From positions 1 through 39,475 of the forward strand of contig DTTI01000027.1 of the NCBI GenBank assembly GCA_012964825.1: a DNA stretch of 39,475 nt, given 5' to 3'. The notes beneath the pieces were generated by a model. That model had not been told where the DNA came from. It saw only the letters and a program-made list of their open reading frames with translations, and made no database searches. Position 1 is the first letter of the stretch. Every line of letters begins with the position of its first letter. The position numbers and the translations under genes are program-made. Shown piece by piece: positions 10,345 to 39,428 of this stretch. The stretch comes from Candidatus Neomarinimicrobiota bacterium. Lineage in GTDB: Bacteria > Fidelibacterota > Marinisomatia > Marinisomatales > S15-B10.

Positions 10345-10839
10345 GTGACTGGTACGTCATTTATTTTTTGGATTGTTGCTTTAGTTACAGTTGCATCCGC
10401 CGCAATGGTGGTATTTTCAAAAAACCTCATTTATTCAGCTATGGCCCTACTGTTTACTCTTATGGGTGTTGCTGGGCTCTACGTCTTCCTATGGGCGGAC
10501 TTTATCGCTGTGACTCAGATTCTCATTTACGTGGGGGGGATACTGGTGCTCATCATTTTCGGTATTATGCTCACTCATAGGATCACCAACGTCAGGCTGT
10601 CCCATTCCTCTATCCAGCAGGGTGTTGGGGGTGCCATCGTTTTGGTGATTTTTCTGGGGCTTACATCCATGATTCTTAAGGCACCGTGGTACAGGGCCAC
10701 AGCTGTTGAGCCTCAGGAAACTGTCCGCCAGATAGGTCGGTTACTGATGATCGATTATCTGCTGCCGTTTGAAGTTGCCTCTGTCTTACTTCTTGCCGCA
10801 CTTATGGGTGCTGCTCTTTTGTCCAGGAAGGTGGACTGA
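10345..10839 (+). CDS. nuoJ: NADH-quinone oxidoreductase subunit J, set 1
   Basis: Five-helix membrane subunit of 164 residues linking the quinone site to the antiporter-like subunits. The conserved third helix reads FIAVTQILIYVGGILVLIIF, with the pi-bulge tyrosine region, and the C-terminus ends DYLLPFEVASVLLLAALMGA, as in the family. It starts with GTG directly after the nuoI-1 stop and its TGA overlaps the nuoK-1 ATG (TGATG). Confidence 0.94.
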   Translation: MTGTSFIFWIVALVTVASAAMVVFSKNLIYSAMALLFTLMGVAGLYVFLWADFIAVTQILIYVGGILVLIIFGIMLTHRITNVRLSHSSIQQGVGGAIVLVIFLGLTSMILKAPWYRATAVEPQETVRQIGRLLMIDYLLPFEVASVLLLAALMGAALLSRKVD

Positions 10840-13210: not shown

Positions 13211-14758
13211 ATGGATTTCAATATTTTGAGTTGGTTGATCTGGGTGCCAGTGGTAGGTGCAATGGTTATTGTTGCTCTTCCCCGGGACAAAGCAGATGTT
13301 ATCAAATGGGTGGCGGTCGCATTTACCGGGCTTCAACTCATTATTGCCGTCGTGCTCTGGATGAATTTTGATAAAGATTTTGTGGGTTTTCAGTTTATGG
13401 AGAAAGCGGCTTGGATTCCGTCTTTTAATATTACTTATATGCTGGGTGTGGATGGTCTTAGTCTCCCTATGGTGGTCCTGACGGCTTTGCTTTCATTCCT
13501 CTGCATATTTGTAAGCTGGAATATTGATAAAGCGCTGAAAGGCTATTTTTCTCTTTTCCTTCTTCTGGACGCGGGTATGGTAGGTGTTTTTGTCTCCCTG
13601 GACTTTTTTCTCTTCTATGTCTTTTGGGAGGTGATGCTCTTGCCCATGTATTTCCTCATCGGTATATGGGGAGGTCCCCAGCGCGAATATGCCGCCATCA
13701 AATTTTTTCTTTACACGCTGTTTGGTTCTGTTCTTATGCTGATAGCCATTCTGGCTCTCTACTACACTTGCGGAAGAACATTTAACATGCTCGAACTGAT
13801 GGCTATCGCTCCCACCGCACTGGGTTCACTTTCCTGGTGGGGTTTTAGTGGAATGAAAGTTGTCTGGATATTGCTCTTCATCGGTTTTGCCATCAAAGTT
13901 CCCATCTTTCCATTCCACACGTGGTTACCATTGGCACATGTTGAGGCACCGACGGCCGTCTCCGTCATACTAGCCGGTGTGCTATTGAAAATGGGTACTT
14001 ATGGGCTTTTGCGGATCAATTACCCCATGATTCCCGATGGGACGGTTTGGTTCGCGGGAGCTCTTGCTGTGCTGGCACTCATTAACATTATTTGGGGTGC
14101 GCTTTGTGCTTTGGCCCAAACAGATCTGAAGAAGATGGTGGCTTATTCATCCATCAATCATATGGGTTACGTCATGCTGGGGATGGCTGCTGTGGTAGCG
14201 GCGGGACCACAACACGGATCCAATTCAGCAGCGGCCCAGCTAGGGATGAACGGCGCTGTACTCCAAATGTTTAATCATGGTACCATCACTGCCATGCTAT
14301 TTATTCTGGTGGGTGTCATTTACGATCGTGCTCATCACCGGAATATAGATGGTTTCGGTGGTCTGGCTTCGAAAACACCCATTTACGCAGGTGTTGTTGC
14401 CCTGGCTTGGTTTGCGGGCCTCGGTCTGCCCGGTCTCTCAGGGTTCATCGGCGAGGCCATGGTCTTCCTGGGCGCCTTTCCAGTTTACAGGACTATTGTC
14501 GTGATCTCCACCCTGGGGATTTTGCTGAATGCCGCATATTTCCTCTGGTCTTACCAGAGAATCTTTCTGGGCAAGCTGAATGAGAAATATGTTGATCTTC
14601 CGGAGATCAGCGGGAGGGAACTGTTCACCCTTGTGCCGCTGGCGGTGCTGGTGATCTTGCTGGGAGTCTATCCTTCACCCCTGATTGATATCATGAAAAC
14701 TACCATGGCACACATCATTGAACTTGTTCAGGTGAGCCCGCTTCTGACAGTAGACTGA
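13211..14758 (+). CDS. nuoM: NADH-quinone oxidoreductase subunit M, set 1
   Basis: Second antiporter-like pump, 515 residues and about 14 helices. Motifs: GVDGLSLPMVVLTALLS, the TM5 glutamate in FYVFWEVMLLPMYFLIGIWGG, the TM7 lysine in FAIKVPIFPFHTWLPLAHVEAPTAVS, ILAGVLLKMGTYG in TM8, and DLKKMVAYSSINHMGYV. The usual HTWLPDAH reads HTWLPLAH here. ATG 13211 lies ten bases after the GAGGG at 13196-13200; the in-frame TTG at 13202 is too close to it. Confidence 0.95.
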   Translation: MDFNILSWLIWVPVVGAMVIVALPRDKADVIKWVAVAFTGLQLIIAVVLWMNFDKDFVGFQFMEKAAWIPSFNITYMLGVDGLSLPMVVLTALLSFLCIFVSWNIDKALKGYFSLFLLLDAGMVGVFVSLDFFLFYVFWEVMLLPMYFLIGIWGGPQREYAAIKFFLYTLFGSVLMLIAILALYYTCGRTFNMLELMAIAPTALGSLSWWGFSGMKVVWILLFIGFAIKVPIFPFHTWLPLAHVEAPTAVSVILAGVLLKMGTYGLLRINYPMIPDGTVWFAGALAVLALINIIWGALCALAQTDLKKMVAYSSINHMGYVMLGMAAVVAAGPQHGSNSAAAQLGMNGAVLQMFNHGTITAMLFILVGVIYDRAHHRNIDGFGGLASKTPIYAGVVALAWFAGLGLPGLSGFIGEAMVFLGAFPVYRTIVVISTLGILLNAAYFLWSYQRIFLGKLNEKYVDLPEISGRELFTLVPLAVLVILLGVYPSPLIDIMKTTMAHIIELVQVSPLLTVD

Positions 14759-33646: not shown

Positions 33647-33897
33647 TCTCCTTTCTTTGAGAAATCTTGTTCGTTAGCCTCTGAGACGCCATCTCCCATC
33701 AGCTAAGAAGACTTCGTGAGACTGGACTGGTTAAGAAGTGGCAGTAAGGTCTAACAATTTATTATCGCCTTTCACCGGAGGATGAGTGGGTGGAAGCCTT
33801 TCGATCATTGGAGTGCGTTTTGGGATCCTCGATGGTACTGATGGCGTCAGAAGTTTCTTGATGCGGTAGGACATTGGTGGGTAAATTCTCTTTTGAA

Positions 33898-34263
33898 ATG
33901 AGGCAAGTTTTTTCATTTCTTTTAGTGTTGGTCTTTGCCGTGGGGCTTACCATTCCGTTCATCCCAACCGATGGTTGTGATCACGTCTGCTGTGAAAAGG
34001 CAGAAATGTGCTGTGCTAAGAAGGTGCCAGTCCAGGCATGTGGTATGACGGATGGTGAAGACAACCGAGCTCCGGTCCTCTTGGTTTTCACACCAAAACC
34101 CCCCAAGACGAGGCTCGCCCGGTTGATAGTCTTCGAACGGATTGGCATATGCGATGTGGCGGAAGAAACTTCCCCTCTGCTCCGAGCCGAGTATTTTCCC
34201 GGTGAATTTCGAGAATCGGCAACGACCCCCCTTTATTATCTCTTCCGTACTCTTCTAATTTAG
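33898..34263 (+). CDS. Secreted Cys-rich protein, putative metal-binding
   Basis: A 121-residue protein with a hydrophobic signal peptide (about 1-24) followed by a compact cluster C27, H29, C31, C32, C38, C39 and C48 (CDHVCCEK and MCCAKK). The remainder, with a PVLLVFTPKPP strand, resembles no family I recognise firmly. Short secreted CC-containing proteins occur next to metal efflux genes in Bacteroidetes-like genomes. It is the first gene of the metal cluster, so a periplasmic metal-binding role (probably copper) is likely but unproven. In-frame TTG 33874 and GTG 33877 would add seven or eight residues; ATG 33898 gives a better signal peptide n-region. Confidence 0.7.
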   Translation: MRQVFSFLLVLVFAVGLTIPFIPTDGCDHVCCEKAEMCCAKKVPVQACGMTDGEDNRAPVLLVFTPKPPKTRLARLIVFERIGICDVAEETSPLLRAEYFPGEFRESATTPLYYLFRTLLI

Positions 34264-34403: not shown

Positions 34404-35768
34404 ATGCGACATAGCAGAATGAGAAAAATTGTATTCCTCTGGATCAGTATCATGTTTCTGGCAGGATGCGTGACCCTGCCCAGAGGATACGCTGACGCTG
34501 AATTAGAGTCATCCATCAGAGAGAGACTGAAAGACGACTTCAAAATCCCGGTTGATGAAGCGCGGGTCCAAGCTATTCAGGTCACGACCGATACCCTAGT
34601 GACGCTAGATGAAGCCGTCGGGATTGCACTCTCCAACAATCCCTCTATCCTGGCACTCTACGCCGAGCTCTCCATCGCCAAGGCGGAGGCGGTCGGTGCT
34701 ATGCTTCCGGATAATCCCATCCTACGTGGCGAGTTCCTGGTTACTTCCGACAATGCCGGAGAGAAGACGGCCATCGCTGTGAGTCAGGATTTGGTCGATC
34801 TGCTTTTGATGCCTCTCAAGAAACGTGTGGCTAAGGGGCGGATAGATCAGAGAAGACTCAACATTGCTTACGAGATTCTCGATGCTGTTGCCGTGGTGAA
34901 GAAAAGTTACCTCGAGTACCAGCGGGATCAACAGATTCTGGAGTTGCACCGATCGGTGGTTGTGACGGCTGAGGCTGAGGCGGAACTCAGCAAGAGGCAA
35001 TTCGGCGAGGGAAACATTAACGCCCTTGATCTCGCCCGCCATCAGGACGTTCTGCACGATGCGATATTGGAACTGATGCGTGCCGAAGCGGAAGTTCGTC
35101 ACAGCAAGGAGCTAGTGAGGAGGTTACTGAGTTTCGACATTGATAGAGATTGGACTGTGGAGAAAGATTTCCCCGGACTTCCGTCACGCGTATGGACTGC
35201 TGAGGAACTCCTCGTCTTGGGGCACGGCCTGCGACTTGATCTGGCGGCGGCGGAGAAGAGAGTGGAAGTCCTGAAATCGGAGGTCCCTCTCGCCAGATTC
35301 AATGCGGTGATTGATGTGGAGGCCGGTATCGGTCGTGAAAAAGAGTCCGATCAGCTGGGAAAGACGGGGCCCGAGATCGGGATCGCGCTCCCGCTATTTG
35401 ACCGTGGTCAGGCGGATGCATCGAGACTGAGATTCGAGATTGTTCAGGCGGAGAATCAGGTGGAAGCGATTTTTCGCGACATTGAGCGTGAGATCTTGAC
35501 CACCCACAGCCAACTACAAACAGAAAGGGAAAGTACTGAGTATTACCGGCAGGTCATTCTTCCCATGAAGCGAAGCGTGTTGGAGGCGGCACAAGCGCAC
35601 TATAATTTTATGCTCATTGGAGTGTACGATCTTCTACAAGCGAAGAAGGATCAGATCTCTGCTCAGCAACGGCATATCGAGACTTTGGCGGAGTATTGGA
35701 TCAAGTACGCTGAATTAGAGAGGGCTGTTGGTGGTGCGCTTCCCGTGGATAATGCGACTCAACATTGA
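34404..35768 (+). CDS. TolC-family outer-membrane efflux lipoprotein (CzcC-like)
   Basis: A 454-residue outer-membrane factor. The N-terminus is a lipoprotein signal with lipobox LAGC (C22), followed by the two long coiled alpha-hairpin regions of the outer membrane efflux protein family. Examples are LDEAVGIALSNNPSILALYAELSIAKAEA and, in the second half, GIALPLFDRGQADASRLRFEIVQAENQVEAIFRDIEREI. The GPEIGIALPLFDRGQ strand-to-helix junction is diagnostic. In such systems it forms the exit duct of an RND metal pump, but no RND or adaptor gene is in the window. It ends 13 bases before the multicopper oxidase ATG. A start at ATG 34419 is also possible. Confidence 0.88.
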   Translation: MRHSRMRKIVFLWISIMFLAGCVTLPRGYADAELESSIRERLKDDFKIPVDEARVQAIQVTTDTLVTLDEAVGIALSNNPSILALYAELSIAKAEAVGAMLPDNPILRGEFLVTSDNAGEKTAIAVSQDLVDLLLMPLKKRVAKGRIDQRRLNIAYEILDAVAVVKKSYLEYQRDQQILELHRSVVVTAEAEAELSKRQFGEGNINALDLARHQDVLHDAILELMRAEAEVRHSKELVRRLLSFDIDRDWTVEKDFPGLPSRVWTAEELLVLGHGLRLDLAAAEKRVEVLKSEVPLARFNAVIDVEAGIGREKESDQLGKTGPEIGIALPLFDRGQADASRLRFEIVQAENQVEAIFRDIEREILTTHSQLQTERESTEYYRQVILPMKRSVLEAAQAHYNFMLIGVYDLLQAKKDQISAQQRHIETLAEYWIKYAELERAVGGALPVDNATQH

Positions 35769-35781
35769 AGGAGAAGAGAAA

Positions 35782-37143
35782 ATGAAGCATACTCTGAGTA
35801 CCATTTTATCAATCATTTGCGGGCCGGGAGCCATTGTGTTCGGGCTTCTTTCAGTAAGCTTGGGGGGTATCCGGGCTGGCGAGTTGCCGTATACACCCGT
35901 GGTGACGCCCAACGGGACTACCATCGAGTGGAAGATTGTAGAAGGCGTCAAAGAGTTCCGCTTGACCGTAGAGGAGATTGAATGGGAGATGGCCCCTGGT
36001 ATGAAGATTAAGGCGTGGGGCTACAATGGACATACACCCGGCCCCACCATTGAGGCAGTGGAGGGAGACCGTGTGCGCATCTACGTCACCAACCGCCTAC
36101 CGGAACCGACAGCTGTCCACTGGCATGGCGTGATCCTGCCGAGCGGCATGGATGGGTTGCAAGGATTAACCCAAGAACCCATCATGCCGGGAGAGACATT
36201 TGTGTACGAATTCACTCTCAAACAACATGGCACGCAAATGTACCATTCCCACGGCGATGAGATGACCCAGATCGGCCTGGGATCCATGGGCTTCTTCATC
36301 ATTCATCCAAAGAAGCGTGATTACACCATCGACCGGGATTATGCCATTTTCCTCAACGAATGGTTTGTCGATCCTGGCACCTCCACGCCCGACCCGAACG
36401 TCATGACCGAATTCAATATCTTTACCTTCAATGGCCGTGCGTATCCAGGAACAGCTCCTCTTGTGGCGAAGACCGGAGAAAGGGTGAGGATCAGGTTCGG
36501 AAACGTGGGGCAGGAAGTTCATCCGATTCACCTGCATGGTCACTCTTTCAATGTGGTGGCGACAGACGGCGGTGATGTGCCGCCCTCCGCCCGTTGGCCA
36601 GAAACCACTGTCACTGTGGCACCGGGACAGACAAGGGATATTGAGTTTGTTGCCAATTCGGGCGACTGGGCTCTCCACTGCCACCGACGCCACCATCCCA
36701 TGAATGCTATGGGGCACGATTTGCCCAATGTTCTCGGTGTGAGTCAGCGAGGTGTGGAAGAGAAAATCAGAGAACAGCTCCCCAATTATATGGCCATGGG
36801 GGAGCGAGGGATGCATGAAATGGCCGAAATGCAAATGACGGGTCCGCCGAATACACTTCCCGCGATGAGCGGCCAGGGCCCGTTTGGCACCGTTGCTATG
36901 GGGGGCATGTTTACAGTGATGAAAGTTCGAGAGCAGCTTAAGAAAGGCGATGATCCTGGCTGGTATCCCAATCCGCCAGGGACCGTGGCATGGCGCATCC
37001 AGACAGACAAGGTAAAGGCACCGCTTAAACCCGATTTAGGCTACGTCTGCCCTATGCATCCCGACGTATACCAAACCGATCCTGGTTCATGCCCGGAATG
37101 CGGGATGTTTCTGATAAAGGCGCCCGAAAAAAAATATGATTAA
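35782..37143 (+). CDS. Multicopper oxidase fused to a C-terminal heavy-metal-binding domain
   Basis: Periplasmic oxidase, probably a cuprous oxidase. The 453-residue protein has a signal peptide or membrane anchor (about 1-32), then copper ligands HWHG (113-116), H155/H157 (YHSH), H247/H250/H252/H254 (HPIHLHGH), and the T1 region H299-C300-H301 continuing through HH to M310 (HCHRRHHPMNAMGH). All trinuclear and T1 positions are filled. A Met-rich segment (about 338-380) suggests copper collection. Residues 421-446 form a heavy-metal-binding domain with CPMHP (C423, H426) and CPECGM (C437, C440), a module also found in copper ATPases and RND adaptors. GAAGGAG at 35767-35773 supports the ATG at 35782. 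Confidence 0.93.
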   Translation: MKHTLSTILSIICGPGAIVFGLLSVSLGGIRAGELPYTPVVTPNGTTIEWKIVEGVKEFRLTVEEIEWEMAPGMKIKAWGYNGHTPGPTIEAVEGDRVRIYVTNRLPEPTAVHWHGVILPSGMDGLQGLTQEPIMPGETFVYEFTLKQHGTQMYHSHGDEMTQIGLGSMGFFIIHPKKRDYTIDRDYAIFLNEWFVDPGTSTPDPNVMTEFNIFTFNGRAYPGTAPLVAKTGERVRIRFGNVGQEVHPIHLHGHSFNVVATDGGDVPPSARWPETTVTVAPGQTRDIEFVANSGDWALHCHRRHHPMNAMGHDLPNVLGVSQRGVEEKIREQLPNYMAMGERGMHEMAEMQMTGPPNTLPAMSGQGPFGTVAMGGMFTVMKVREQLKKGDDPGWYPNPPGTVAWRIQTDKVKAPLKPDLGYVCPMHPDVYQTDPGSCPECGMFLIKAPEKKYD

Positions 37144-37158
37144 AAACTGGAGGAAAGC

Positions 37159-38223
37159 GTGAAAGGGATTTTTATTTGGATCAGTACAATGCTCTTTGTA
37201 TCGGCCCTCTGGGGCCAGTGACCGCTCTGAACGAATCCTAGCCTCCCGGTCGGGACGGCCAATACAGGAATCGGACTGGGTCGAGGTATGCTTTTGGTTG
37301 GTGGCAACCTGATGAATCAGAGAATCGACTGGTGGCACGGTGCTCTCGACTCTACCGGTGAACATCAAGGGAACTTAATTTCTCGTATCGGAGAACTAAA
37401 TTTGAATCTCGGTATCACCGATGATTGGAATCTCCAAATAAACCTCATAGGCGGCAACAGGAGGATGGACTTCCCAAGTGTTCCCAATATCCATCACCGT
37501 AATGAGGATAGGGGCGGCATCGCCGATACGAAATTGATGTTGAGATACTTGGTAAGCAATAGTGACTTTGGTCCCGGCGATCGTTTCTTTCTGGGCTTCG
37601 GTCTCTCCATACCTTCAGATAACACACTTTCGCGGAACCCCTTTCTCCTTGGGAGACAAGGGAAGGAACATACCCATTTTGATATGAGTGAAGGGGTCTA
37701 CAGAAGCTTGAATGAAGTTCAATTTTTCCGGAGAACGGAATCGCCCTTTGTTGTGGGTGGAGTCGTTCGTCTCGAGGTCCCATTCGGCCAGAACCAATAT
37801 GGTTATCTCCCGGGAACCCAGCTGACCATGGCTGGCATGGCTTATTGGCAAGGGAAGAGTGTTTTCGGCGGTATGCCCTATTTCCTATCCGCTGGCCAAT
37901 TCAGATCAAAAGATTATTGGAATGGAGAAGAGGCACCCAACTCCGGCGCTATTATCATCCAAGCAGGGGGCGGATTGGTCTGGAATGTGAATGAATCTCT
38001 GATTACATTCTCTATTCAAGCGCCTGTCGTTTTCAAAGCCAACATGGTTGGAGAAGATGCTTCCGTGGACAGCAGGGCCAATGTGTGGATCGCTTCAATC
38101 AGTCTCCGGAAAATCTTCGATGTTTCCGCTCTTTTCCCAAGCATAGATGATGATGAGTTGGAAGAGCATGAACATGAACACGAGGATGAGATAAATCAAA
38201 AGATGATTAGAATGGAACGGTGA
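37159..38223 (+). CDS. Candidate selenoprotein: outer-membrane barrel-like protein with UxxU motif (two in-frame TGA)
   Basis: Read from GTG 37159 (GGAGG at 37149-37153), the frame encodes a 20-residue signal peptide, then TGA (37219-37221), Pro-Leu, TGA (37228-37230), and continues without further stops to TGA 38221-38223, 354 residues in all. The sense frame downstream of the TGAs would otherwise begin at ATG 37288 without any secretion signal. The body is rich in alternating hydrophobic/Gly strands (GRGMLLVGGNLM, LNLNLGITDDWNLQINLIGG, RFFLGFGLSIPS), as in outer-membrane barrels, and the C-terminus carries a His/Glu tail (EEHEHEHEDE). The TGAs occupy CxxC-like positions 21 and 24, just after the signal peptide, and a SECIS-like hairpin follows at 37241-37259. 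Selenocysteine is my preferred reading; a Cys-type recoding or a double nonsense mutation are alternatives. Confidence 0.75.
37241..37259 (+). promoter_or_regulatory. Bacterial SECIS-like stem-loop
   Basis: GCC 37241-37243 pairs with GGC 37257-37259, C37256 is bulged, TCCC 37244-37247 pairs with GGGA 37252-37255, and the apical loop is GGTC (37248-37251). The same GGUC apical loop closes the E. coli fdhF SECIS. There are 17 bases between the second TGA and the loop and 26 between the first TGA and the loop, both within the roughly 16-37 range used in bacterial SECIS models. Pairing is by eye. Confidence 0.65.
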
Positions 38224-39428
38224 GTCGAACAATCCTTCATATATTGTTGATAATGCTAATCTTTGCTGGGTGCGAGTCGCCGCCAATGGAGGTCCGATCT
38301 TTGGAGAGCCCAGCACCTTTAGGCAGTCGTTTTCCCAATCTCACGACGACCTCGGAAGGGACCATGATCATGTCGTGGTTCACTCCCTACAACGATCAAG
38401 GTGGATATGAACTGAAGATGGCCGAATGGGATGGAACTTTGTGGAGTGAACCAAACACCATTTACAAGGGCGATGACTTTTTCGTCAACTGGGCTGACGT
38501 CCCTTCTATTTTTCAAGTTAATGGTGATAGGTTGGCTGCCCATTGGCTCTACATGCGAGGGGGAGGGACTTACGAGTATGATGTTTACCTTTCTACCTCT
38601 TATGATCGAGGCTTAACATGGAGTGAACCCATGATTCCGCATAGAGATGGTGTTGCTGCGGAGCATGGTTTTGTCTCGTTTTTCCATCGCGAGTCGGGAG
38701 GTCTCGGAATAGCTTGGCTGGATGGTCGAAACATGATTTCTTCTGATGATGGTCATGGCTCTGGTGCCATGTCGATATTTACGACAAATCTAGATCAAGA
38801 GAACCGATTGGATCAGGAATTTTCACTCGATGCCCGCGTCTGTGAATGTTGTCCCACCGCTGCTGCTACAATCGGTGCATCGAACATCATTGCCTATCGT
38901 GATAGAGGAGAAGAAGAAATTCGAAACATTCAGGTAGTTCGATATAGCGGAGGTGTTTGGTCAAAACCGTCGACCGTTCATGAGGATGGATGGATGATCC
39001 CCGGTTGCCCTGTTAACGGTCCGGCTCTTGCAGTGAGCGGAGATCGATTGGCCATTGCCTGGTATACGGCACCAAAAGGTGATGCACAAGTGAAAGTTGC
39101 TTTTTCGAAGGATGTCGGAGCAAGTTTCTCGGAACCAGTTAGAATAGATGGTGGTATCCCGTTGGGCCGTGTTGATTTAGAATGGGTGGATCATTCCTCT
39201 GTCATTGTCAGTTGGATAGAAGTAGCCGGGGATTCAGCTGAATTGAAATTGCGAAAAGTGTCTCTCAAGGGTGAGGTTGACTCGCCCTTGGTTGTGAGTA
39301 ATATTAATGCGGCCAGGGGAAGCGGCTATCCTCAAATGGTTAATTACAAAAATGAACTGGTCTTTGCCTGGACCGAACCCGGCCAGTGGGAAATCAGAAT
39401 GGCAAGGTTAAACAAAAATAGTCTTTAA
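38220..39428 (+). CDS. Sialidase-fold lipoprotein with CECC motif
   Basis: A 402-residue exported lipoprotein: lipobox IFAGC with C18, then a beta-propeller-like body. An Asp-box (STSYDRGLTW, about 125-134) and a degenerate one (FSKDVGASF) point to the sialidase/neuraminidase fold. No sialidase arginine triad or FRIP motif is obvious, so glycosidase activity is doubtful. C208, C210 and C211 (VCECCPTAAA), followed by AYRDRGEEEIRNI and WMIPGCPVNGPALA, look like a conserved metal or disulfide site. It starts with GTG overlapping the previous stop (GTGA), tying it to the candidate selenoprotein. I infer an envelope metal-handling role from context only. Confidence 0.8.
   Translation: MSRTILHILLIMLIFAGCESPPMEVRSLESPAPLGSRFPNLTTTSEGTMIMSWFTPYNDQGGYELKMAEWDGTLWSEPNTIYKGDDFFVNWADVPSIFQVNGDRLAAHWLYMRGGGTYEYDVYLSTSYDRGLTWSEPMIPHRDGVAAEHGFVSFFHRESGGLGIAWLDGRNMISSDDGHGSGAMSIFTTNLDQENRLDQEFSLDARVCECCPTAAATIGASNIIAYRDRGEEEIRNIQVVRYSGGVWSKPSTVHEDGWMIPGCPVNGPALAVSGDRLAIAWYTAPKGDAQVKVAFSKDVGASFSEPVRIDGGIPLGRVDLEWVDHSSVIVSWIEVAGDSAELKLRKVSLKGEVDSPLVVSNINAARGSGYPQMVNYKNELVFAWTEPGQWEIRMARLNKNSL

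Follow-up and report, generated by a model that had tools for sequence, protein, structure and literature searches.

A marine Neomarinimicrobiota gene family with paired in-frame UGA codons: evidence for a di-selenocysteine envelope protein and a tentative role in metal handling

In a 39,475-nucleotide stretch of DNA from Candidatus Neomarinimicrobiota bacterium (contig DTTI01000027.1, hereafter the window), a GTG start at 37159 opens a frame that encodes a hydrophobic leader, VKGIFIWISTMLFVSALWGQ, meets the codons TGA-CCG-CTC-TGA at 37219-37230, and then stays open for about 330 codons. Does this frame encode an envelope protein with two selenocysteine (Sec) residues in a UxxU motif, or is it no selenoprotein at all, perhaps one that begins instead at ATG 37288, from which a stop-free frame is also available? 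A sequence-only reading had proposed the former, citing a ribosome site, the GTG start, a signal peptide, the paired TGA codons and the long open frame, and all of these held. It had added that a start at 37288 would leave the protein without its signal peptide; this held too, and the most conserved block would be lost as well.

The features of the locus are given in Table 1. The terminal TGA overlaps the GTG start (38220) of the next gene. TGA is also a stop here, since the UxxU gene itself ends in it; 12 other family members likewise end in TGA. The signal peptide is probably cleaved before an invariant Gln (37216-37218), an inference from the sequence, and the protein ends in an acidic, His-rich C-terminal tail, DDDELEEHEHEHEDE, at 38146..38190 (+).

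Table 1. Features of the UxxU gene and its surroundings, in window coordinates
Feature	Position	Strand	Basis or remark
Small Cys-rich secreted protein	33874..34263	+	In L032, relatives sit immediately upstream of the UxxU gene
TolC-like outer membrane efflux protein (PF02321)	34404..35768	+	
Multicopper oxidase with C-terminal heavy-metal-binding domain (PF07732, PF07731, PF19335)	35728..37143	+	
Ribosome-binding site, GGAGGA	37149..37154	+	Sequence
Gene of the predicted di-selenocysteine envelope protein, 354 codons plus TGA stop	37159..38223	+	Sequence, homologues
Predicted signal peptide	37159..37215	+	Sequence; cleavage site inferred
First Sec codon, UGA	37219..37221	+	
Second Sec codon, UGA	37228..37230	+	
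bSECIS hairpin, GCCUCCC-GGUC-GGGACGGC, one bulged C	37241..37259	+	Covariation, consensus structure, published model
BNR-repeat-like protein, overlapping the stop of the UxxU gene	38220..39428	+	Relative in the same place in L032
Terminal TGA, read as stop	38221..38223	+	

Conservation of the motif and the machinery to decode it

A first search found homologues in 15 of 41 genomes, and a profile (A1) recovered it from 85 of the 245 Marinimicrobia genomes, two marginal ones being dropped from later counts. Nearly all profile matches are full-length with exactly two TGA codons. For the reading of the motif the N-terminal search pattern itself demanded U or C, but the two TGA codons of nearly every full-length match come from mechanical stop counts. 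TGA occupies both positions in 78 of 82 N-terminal motif instances (the 78 include one gene twice, since an assembly gap splits it), and UxxU conservation reaches down to roughly 28-30% protein identity. The remaining four read CSLU (L038), UALC (L077), CALU (a second copy in L041, found also in L042) and CAMC (a second copy in L040). Among the homologues read, neither motif position holds anything other than Sec or Cys, and exchange is seen at each; these rare forms are the swaps between Sec and Cys that a genuine selenoprotein should show. The TGA codons recur in dozens of genomes and so cannot be sequencing errors. Across 54 diverse members the block QUxxUxNPSLPVG is invariant in Q, both Sec/Cys positions, N, L, P and G. 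The gene broken by the gap, with the motif on both sides (L034, about 10579-10799, - strand), is an assembly artefact in G029.

The CALU and CAMC copies belong to a tandem paralogue of the main family, and aligning the CxxC form of that paralogue to the main family sets motif upon motif (hhalign, 98.5%, E 3.5e-15). Another paralogue, a secreted protein in L128 and L129, carries only one Sec, which in the alignment falls on the second Sec of UxxU (93.6%, E 2e-7). At L128:4841-5797 (+) and in L129 (- strand) it reads AQVSURRPVLPVGSS with the same GGUC hairpin; L130 has a CC form, AQLCCTSG. In a narrow-pattern contig scan the only named match was Candidatus Neomarinimicrobiota NORP68, which does not show absence outside the phylum, and no relatives were found among the plasmids or the viral contigs searched.

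The source genome of the window, 97.6% complete, has selA, selB, selC and selD. Its tRNA-Sec (ARAGORN, anticodon tca) lies side by side with selB and selA on contig C58, and its selD itself carries an in-frame TGA, reading GUACK, with GGCUCAGGUUCUGAGCC downstream. Across the family, selA is absent from 11 of 83 gene-bearing genomes, all 11 being 58-89% complete. The sequence-only reading had named what would refute it: no Sec machinery, homologues lacking Cys or Sec at both positions, TGA codons arising as sequencing errors, or other sense codons in close relatives. None of these outcomes occurred where it could be tested, and the selenocysteine interpretation is supported.

A single hairpin behind two UGA codons

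A SECIS loop had also been claimed; that claim held through covariation and the published bSECIS model, not through single-sequence folding. Folding energies for three family members are no better than those of shuffles (z -0.50, -0.09, +0.63; the window stretch gives -11.7 kcal/mol), so a loop picked by eye alone is no evidence. The hairpin is the sole consensus structure predicted in 70 sequences (columns 24-29/34-39). It is 95% paired, and pairs 24-39, 25-38 and 27-36 vary on both sides. Six pair types occur between columns 27 and 36, each a third codon position, and the covariation lies partly at synonymous sites. With the hairpin and a weaker lower helix tested together, the covariation score is higher than in any of 500 shuffles or any slid control. 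The lower helix would engage the bases between the two UGA codons (columns 5-11 with 44-50); it is paired in just 53% and was not adopted.

The loop, GGUC at 37248-37251 in the window, is GGUC in 51, AGUU in 15 and AGGU in 3 of 69 sequences. The first UGA is 26 nt away from the hairpin and the second 17 nt; both spacings fall within the 16-37 nt required by the published model (PMC13188914), and one hairpin therefore fits both codons. Our own implementation of that model is met for both UGA codons by 62/69 sequences as against 25/123 ordinary TGA stops, and a strict tetraloop test by 56/69 as against 0/123. The strict loop list was derived from the same family, making this a specificity check and no independent test. 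Among the paralogues, CCUCCGGUCGGAGG is retained in the CxxU form and CUACCGGUCGGUAG is present in the single-Sec one, whereas the CxxC form no longer has the GGUC loop. On covariation and the published constraints taken together, the hairpin is real. Since no second conserved hairpin is seen, it would appear that one SECIS serves two UGA codons nine bases apart, a probable inference from comparative evidence. Machinery, conservation, Sec/Cys exchange and the covarying SECIS make Sec insertion very likely, and close to certain, in the absence of expression or selenium data.

Envelope location and metal-associated neighbours

The signal peptide makes a secreted, envelope-located protein likely, as inferred from sequence. 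Its fold is less clear. The window protein matches no Pfam or NCBIfam model, neither collection detects a thioredoxin-like or peroxiredoxin domain around the motif, and sequence searches of the PDB gave no credible match. PF13557 is weakly matched by 4-5 relatives (best 2.7e-6) and not by the window protein, and hhalign against the genome's own PF13557 protein was unsuccessful. Averaged hydropathy shows beta-type alternation greater than in 199 of 200 shuffles; AlphaFold2, run on the window protein and L031, gave pLDDT 37. With support from weak PF13557 matches and this alternation, and only a low-confidence model, an outer-membrane beta-barrel with a periplasmic N-terminus is plausible but not shown, and the earlier claim of an outer-membrane protein is only weakly supported. 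The family alignment contains conserved histidines, which with the His-rich tail could fit a metal role, a possibility for which there are no metal data. The invariant Gln before UxxU recalls the Q-rule of Bacteroidetes, a rule said not to hold throughout the FCB group (PMC5837995).

The TolC-like protein and the multicopper oxidase lie upstream of the UxxU gene in the window, in L033 relatives of the two follow it, and a multicopper oxidase is found in the same cluster in G013 also. Neighbours in other genomes include MerTP-type proteins, ArsR regulators and CopZ-like proteins, with MerA over its cut-off beside the gene in G004 and G237, MerB beside it in L095, L102 and L105, and an HMA lipoprotein adjoining it in L037. 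MerT occurs in 20/245 genomes, and 16 of the 20 also have the UxxU gene (Fisher p 1.4e-5; 4.3e-4 among selA-bearing genomes only); these p values overstate independence because the genomes are related. MerT is present in only a minority of gene-bearing genomes and is lacking in the window's own, and several lineages show housekeeping neighbours only. The context points to soft metals. For the window, the copper cluster that had been proposed is right, but across the family at large the signs are more of mercury and soft metals; the metal- or redox-active function proposed with it remains inference.

Several further selenoprotein candidates occur near the gene. Upstream of it in mer-like operons is a MerA-like flavoprotein whose first redox residue is Sec, so that CxxxxC becomes UxxxxC (GGTUVNEGCIPTK), seen in L102 (G190:C48:3410-4768), L105 (G192:C7:65678-67039) and L095, with TGA-bearing matches also in G189, G191 and G193; it is not in Table 1 of the 2026 inventory. 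Downstream, near 14497 (+) in L040 and on the - strand in L041, is a TlpA/AhpC-like UxxC candidate, FFASWUPVC, fused behind beta-propeller-like repeats and ending in a C-terminal tail similar to a sorting domain. A conserved block in L040, L041 and L042 comprises the UxxU gene and, 3' of it, the CxxC/CxxU paralogue, a DUF3179 protein, a further secreted protein starting GQACC and a thioredoxin-like protein. Next to the gene in L122, near 7289 (+), is an HMA-rhodanese fusion with UxxC in its HMA motif, GMTUHSC, and an AAGUGC-GGUCU-GCACUU hairpin.

Competing explanations and known systems

The reading we favor, with a probability of about 0.55, is an outer-membrane partner of envelope metal detoxification whose selenolate pair is a ligand for Hg(II) or Cu(I), the metal binding being inferred. 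SelB and tRNA-Sec would decode both UGA codons, directed by a single bSECIS hairpin that closely follows the second, to give a mature N-terminus with Sec at about positions 2 and 5 (Gln-Sec-Pro-Leu-Sec). The body would be a beta-barrel (weakly supported) holding this N-terminus in the periplasm, and the selenolates of UxxU would most likely clamp soft metals there: Cu(I) in the window, and Hg(II) or organomercury in genomes that have the gene in mer operons. Captured metals might then be handed over or exported with the products of neighbouring metal genes, by analogy with the N-terminal metal-binding region of PcoB/CopB beside PcoA, or with the CxxC of MerP/MerT. The multicopper oxidase, the TolC-like protein, the mer neighbours, MerT co-occurrence and the conserved His support such a role by inference only. 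Against it stand the lack of expression, selenium or metal data, the weak barrel and a MerT link that is not universal. A bolder version, to which we give rather less credence, is that Marinimicrobia detoxify at the envelope with an outer-membrane protein whose near-obligate N-terminal diselenolate, its two Sec programmed nine bases apart by one bSECIS, traps periplasmic mercury, organomercury or copper.

A true di-Sec envelope protein might instead use UxxU as a redox centre, for diselenide/selenol exchange or the reduction of peroxide or disulfide. This remains possible: most selenoproteins are redox proteins (PMC13188914), and thioredoxin-like and TlpA-like proteins lie near some copies. 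However, no thioredoxin or peroxiredoxin domain is detected, the recurrent neighbours are metal genes, and both positions are almost always Sec, whereas redox pairs usually combine one Sec with one Cys (PMC13188914 Table 1). It is very unlikely that the UGA codons are truly read through mainly to gate an ordinary envelope protein by selenium supply. Selenium supply does govern UGA decoding, but the codons stand exactly where the paralogue has CxxC, their rare replacements are Cys, and one UGA without Cys exchange would suffice for simple gating. That there is no selenoprotein, the gene being a pseudogene, a sequencing error, a product of general TGA recoding or one started at ATG 37288, is all but excluded. 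The stop-free ATG frame speaks for it, but that start would sacrifice the signal peptide and conserved block, the same two TGA codons recur across dozens of genomes, TGA serves as the stop in the window gene and in 12 further members, the set of Sec genes is complete and the SECIS covaries. On the shared TGA codons and TGA stop use, pseudogene, error and general recoding were rejected.

If the metal-handling reading is true, the outer envelope of marine bacteria from an uncultured phylum would contain selenium, tied to mercury and copper handling, and a widespread di-Sec family would be added that current catalogues seem to miss. The gene also offers a natural test of one bacterial SECIS serving two closely spaced UGA codons. 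The family is missing from the 2026 list of 119 prokaryotic selenoprotein families, whose UxxU entries are Prx-like, HMA-type and FmdB-type and whose outer-membrane entries have one Sec each (PMC13188914), and no paper on it was found in the open-access literature searched. The authors of deep-Sep note that their method may discard selenoproteins that have no Cys homologues (PMC12013277); Cys versions are very rare in the UxxU family.

Among known systems, the Prx-like family shares two Sec in UxxU, but is peroxiredoxin/thioredoxin-like (PMC2398784), a domain not detected in the envelope protein. Fish SelL, too, has UxxU and is peroxiredoxin/thioredoxin-like. GSU2204/MtrB-PioB-like proteins (NF041027) and TonB receptors of the FCYXU type (NF049945) are likewise predicted outer-membrane selenoproteins, but have one Sec each and are unrelated to the family by NCBIfam search. 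PF13557 (Phenol_MetA_deg), the weak match of some relatives, is not defined by an N-terminal Sec or CxxC. MerP/MerT and the HMA-type NF041115 share a CxxC/UxxU soft-metal motif in a mer context, and MerTP-type proteins stand beside the gene in relatives; they are, however, small HMA-domain or inner-membrane proteins, whereas the UxxU protein has no HMA domain and did not match the NF041115 model in the NCBIfam search. The CopB family gave no match in Pfam scans, and PcoB uses a His/Met-rich disordered region without Sec. With PcoB/CopB the UxxU protein, a probable outer-membrane protein, shares an N-terminal metal-ligand region and a multicopper oxidase neighbour. PcoB is the best functional analogue, since copper resistance depends on its N-terminal region, which also stabilises PcoA, encoded in the same operon (PMC12509749).
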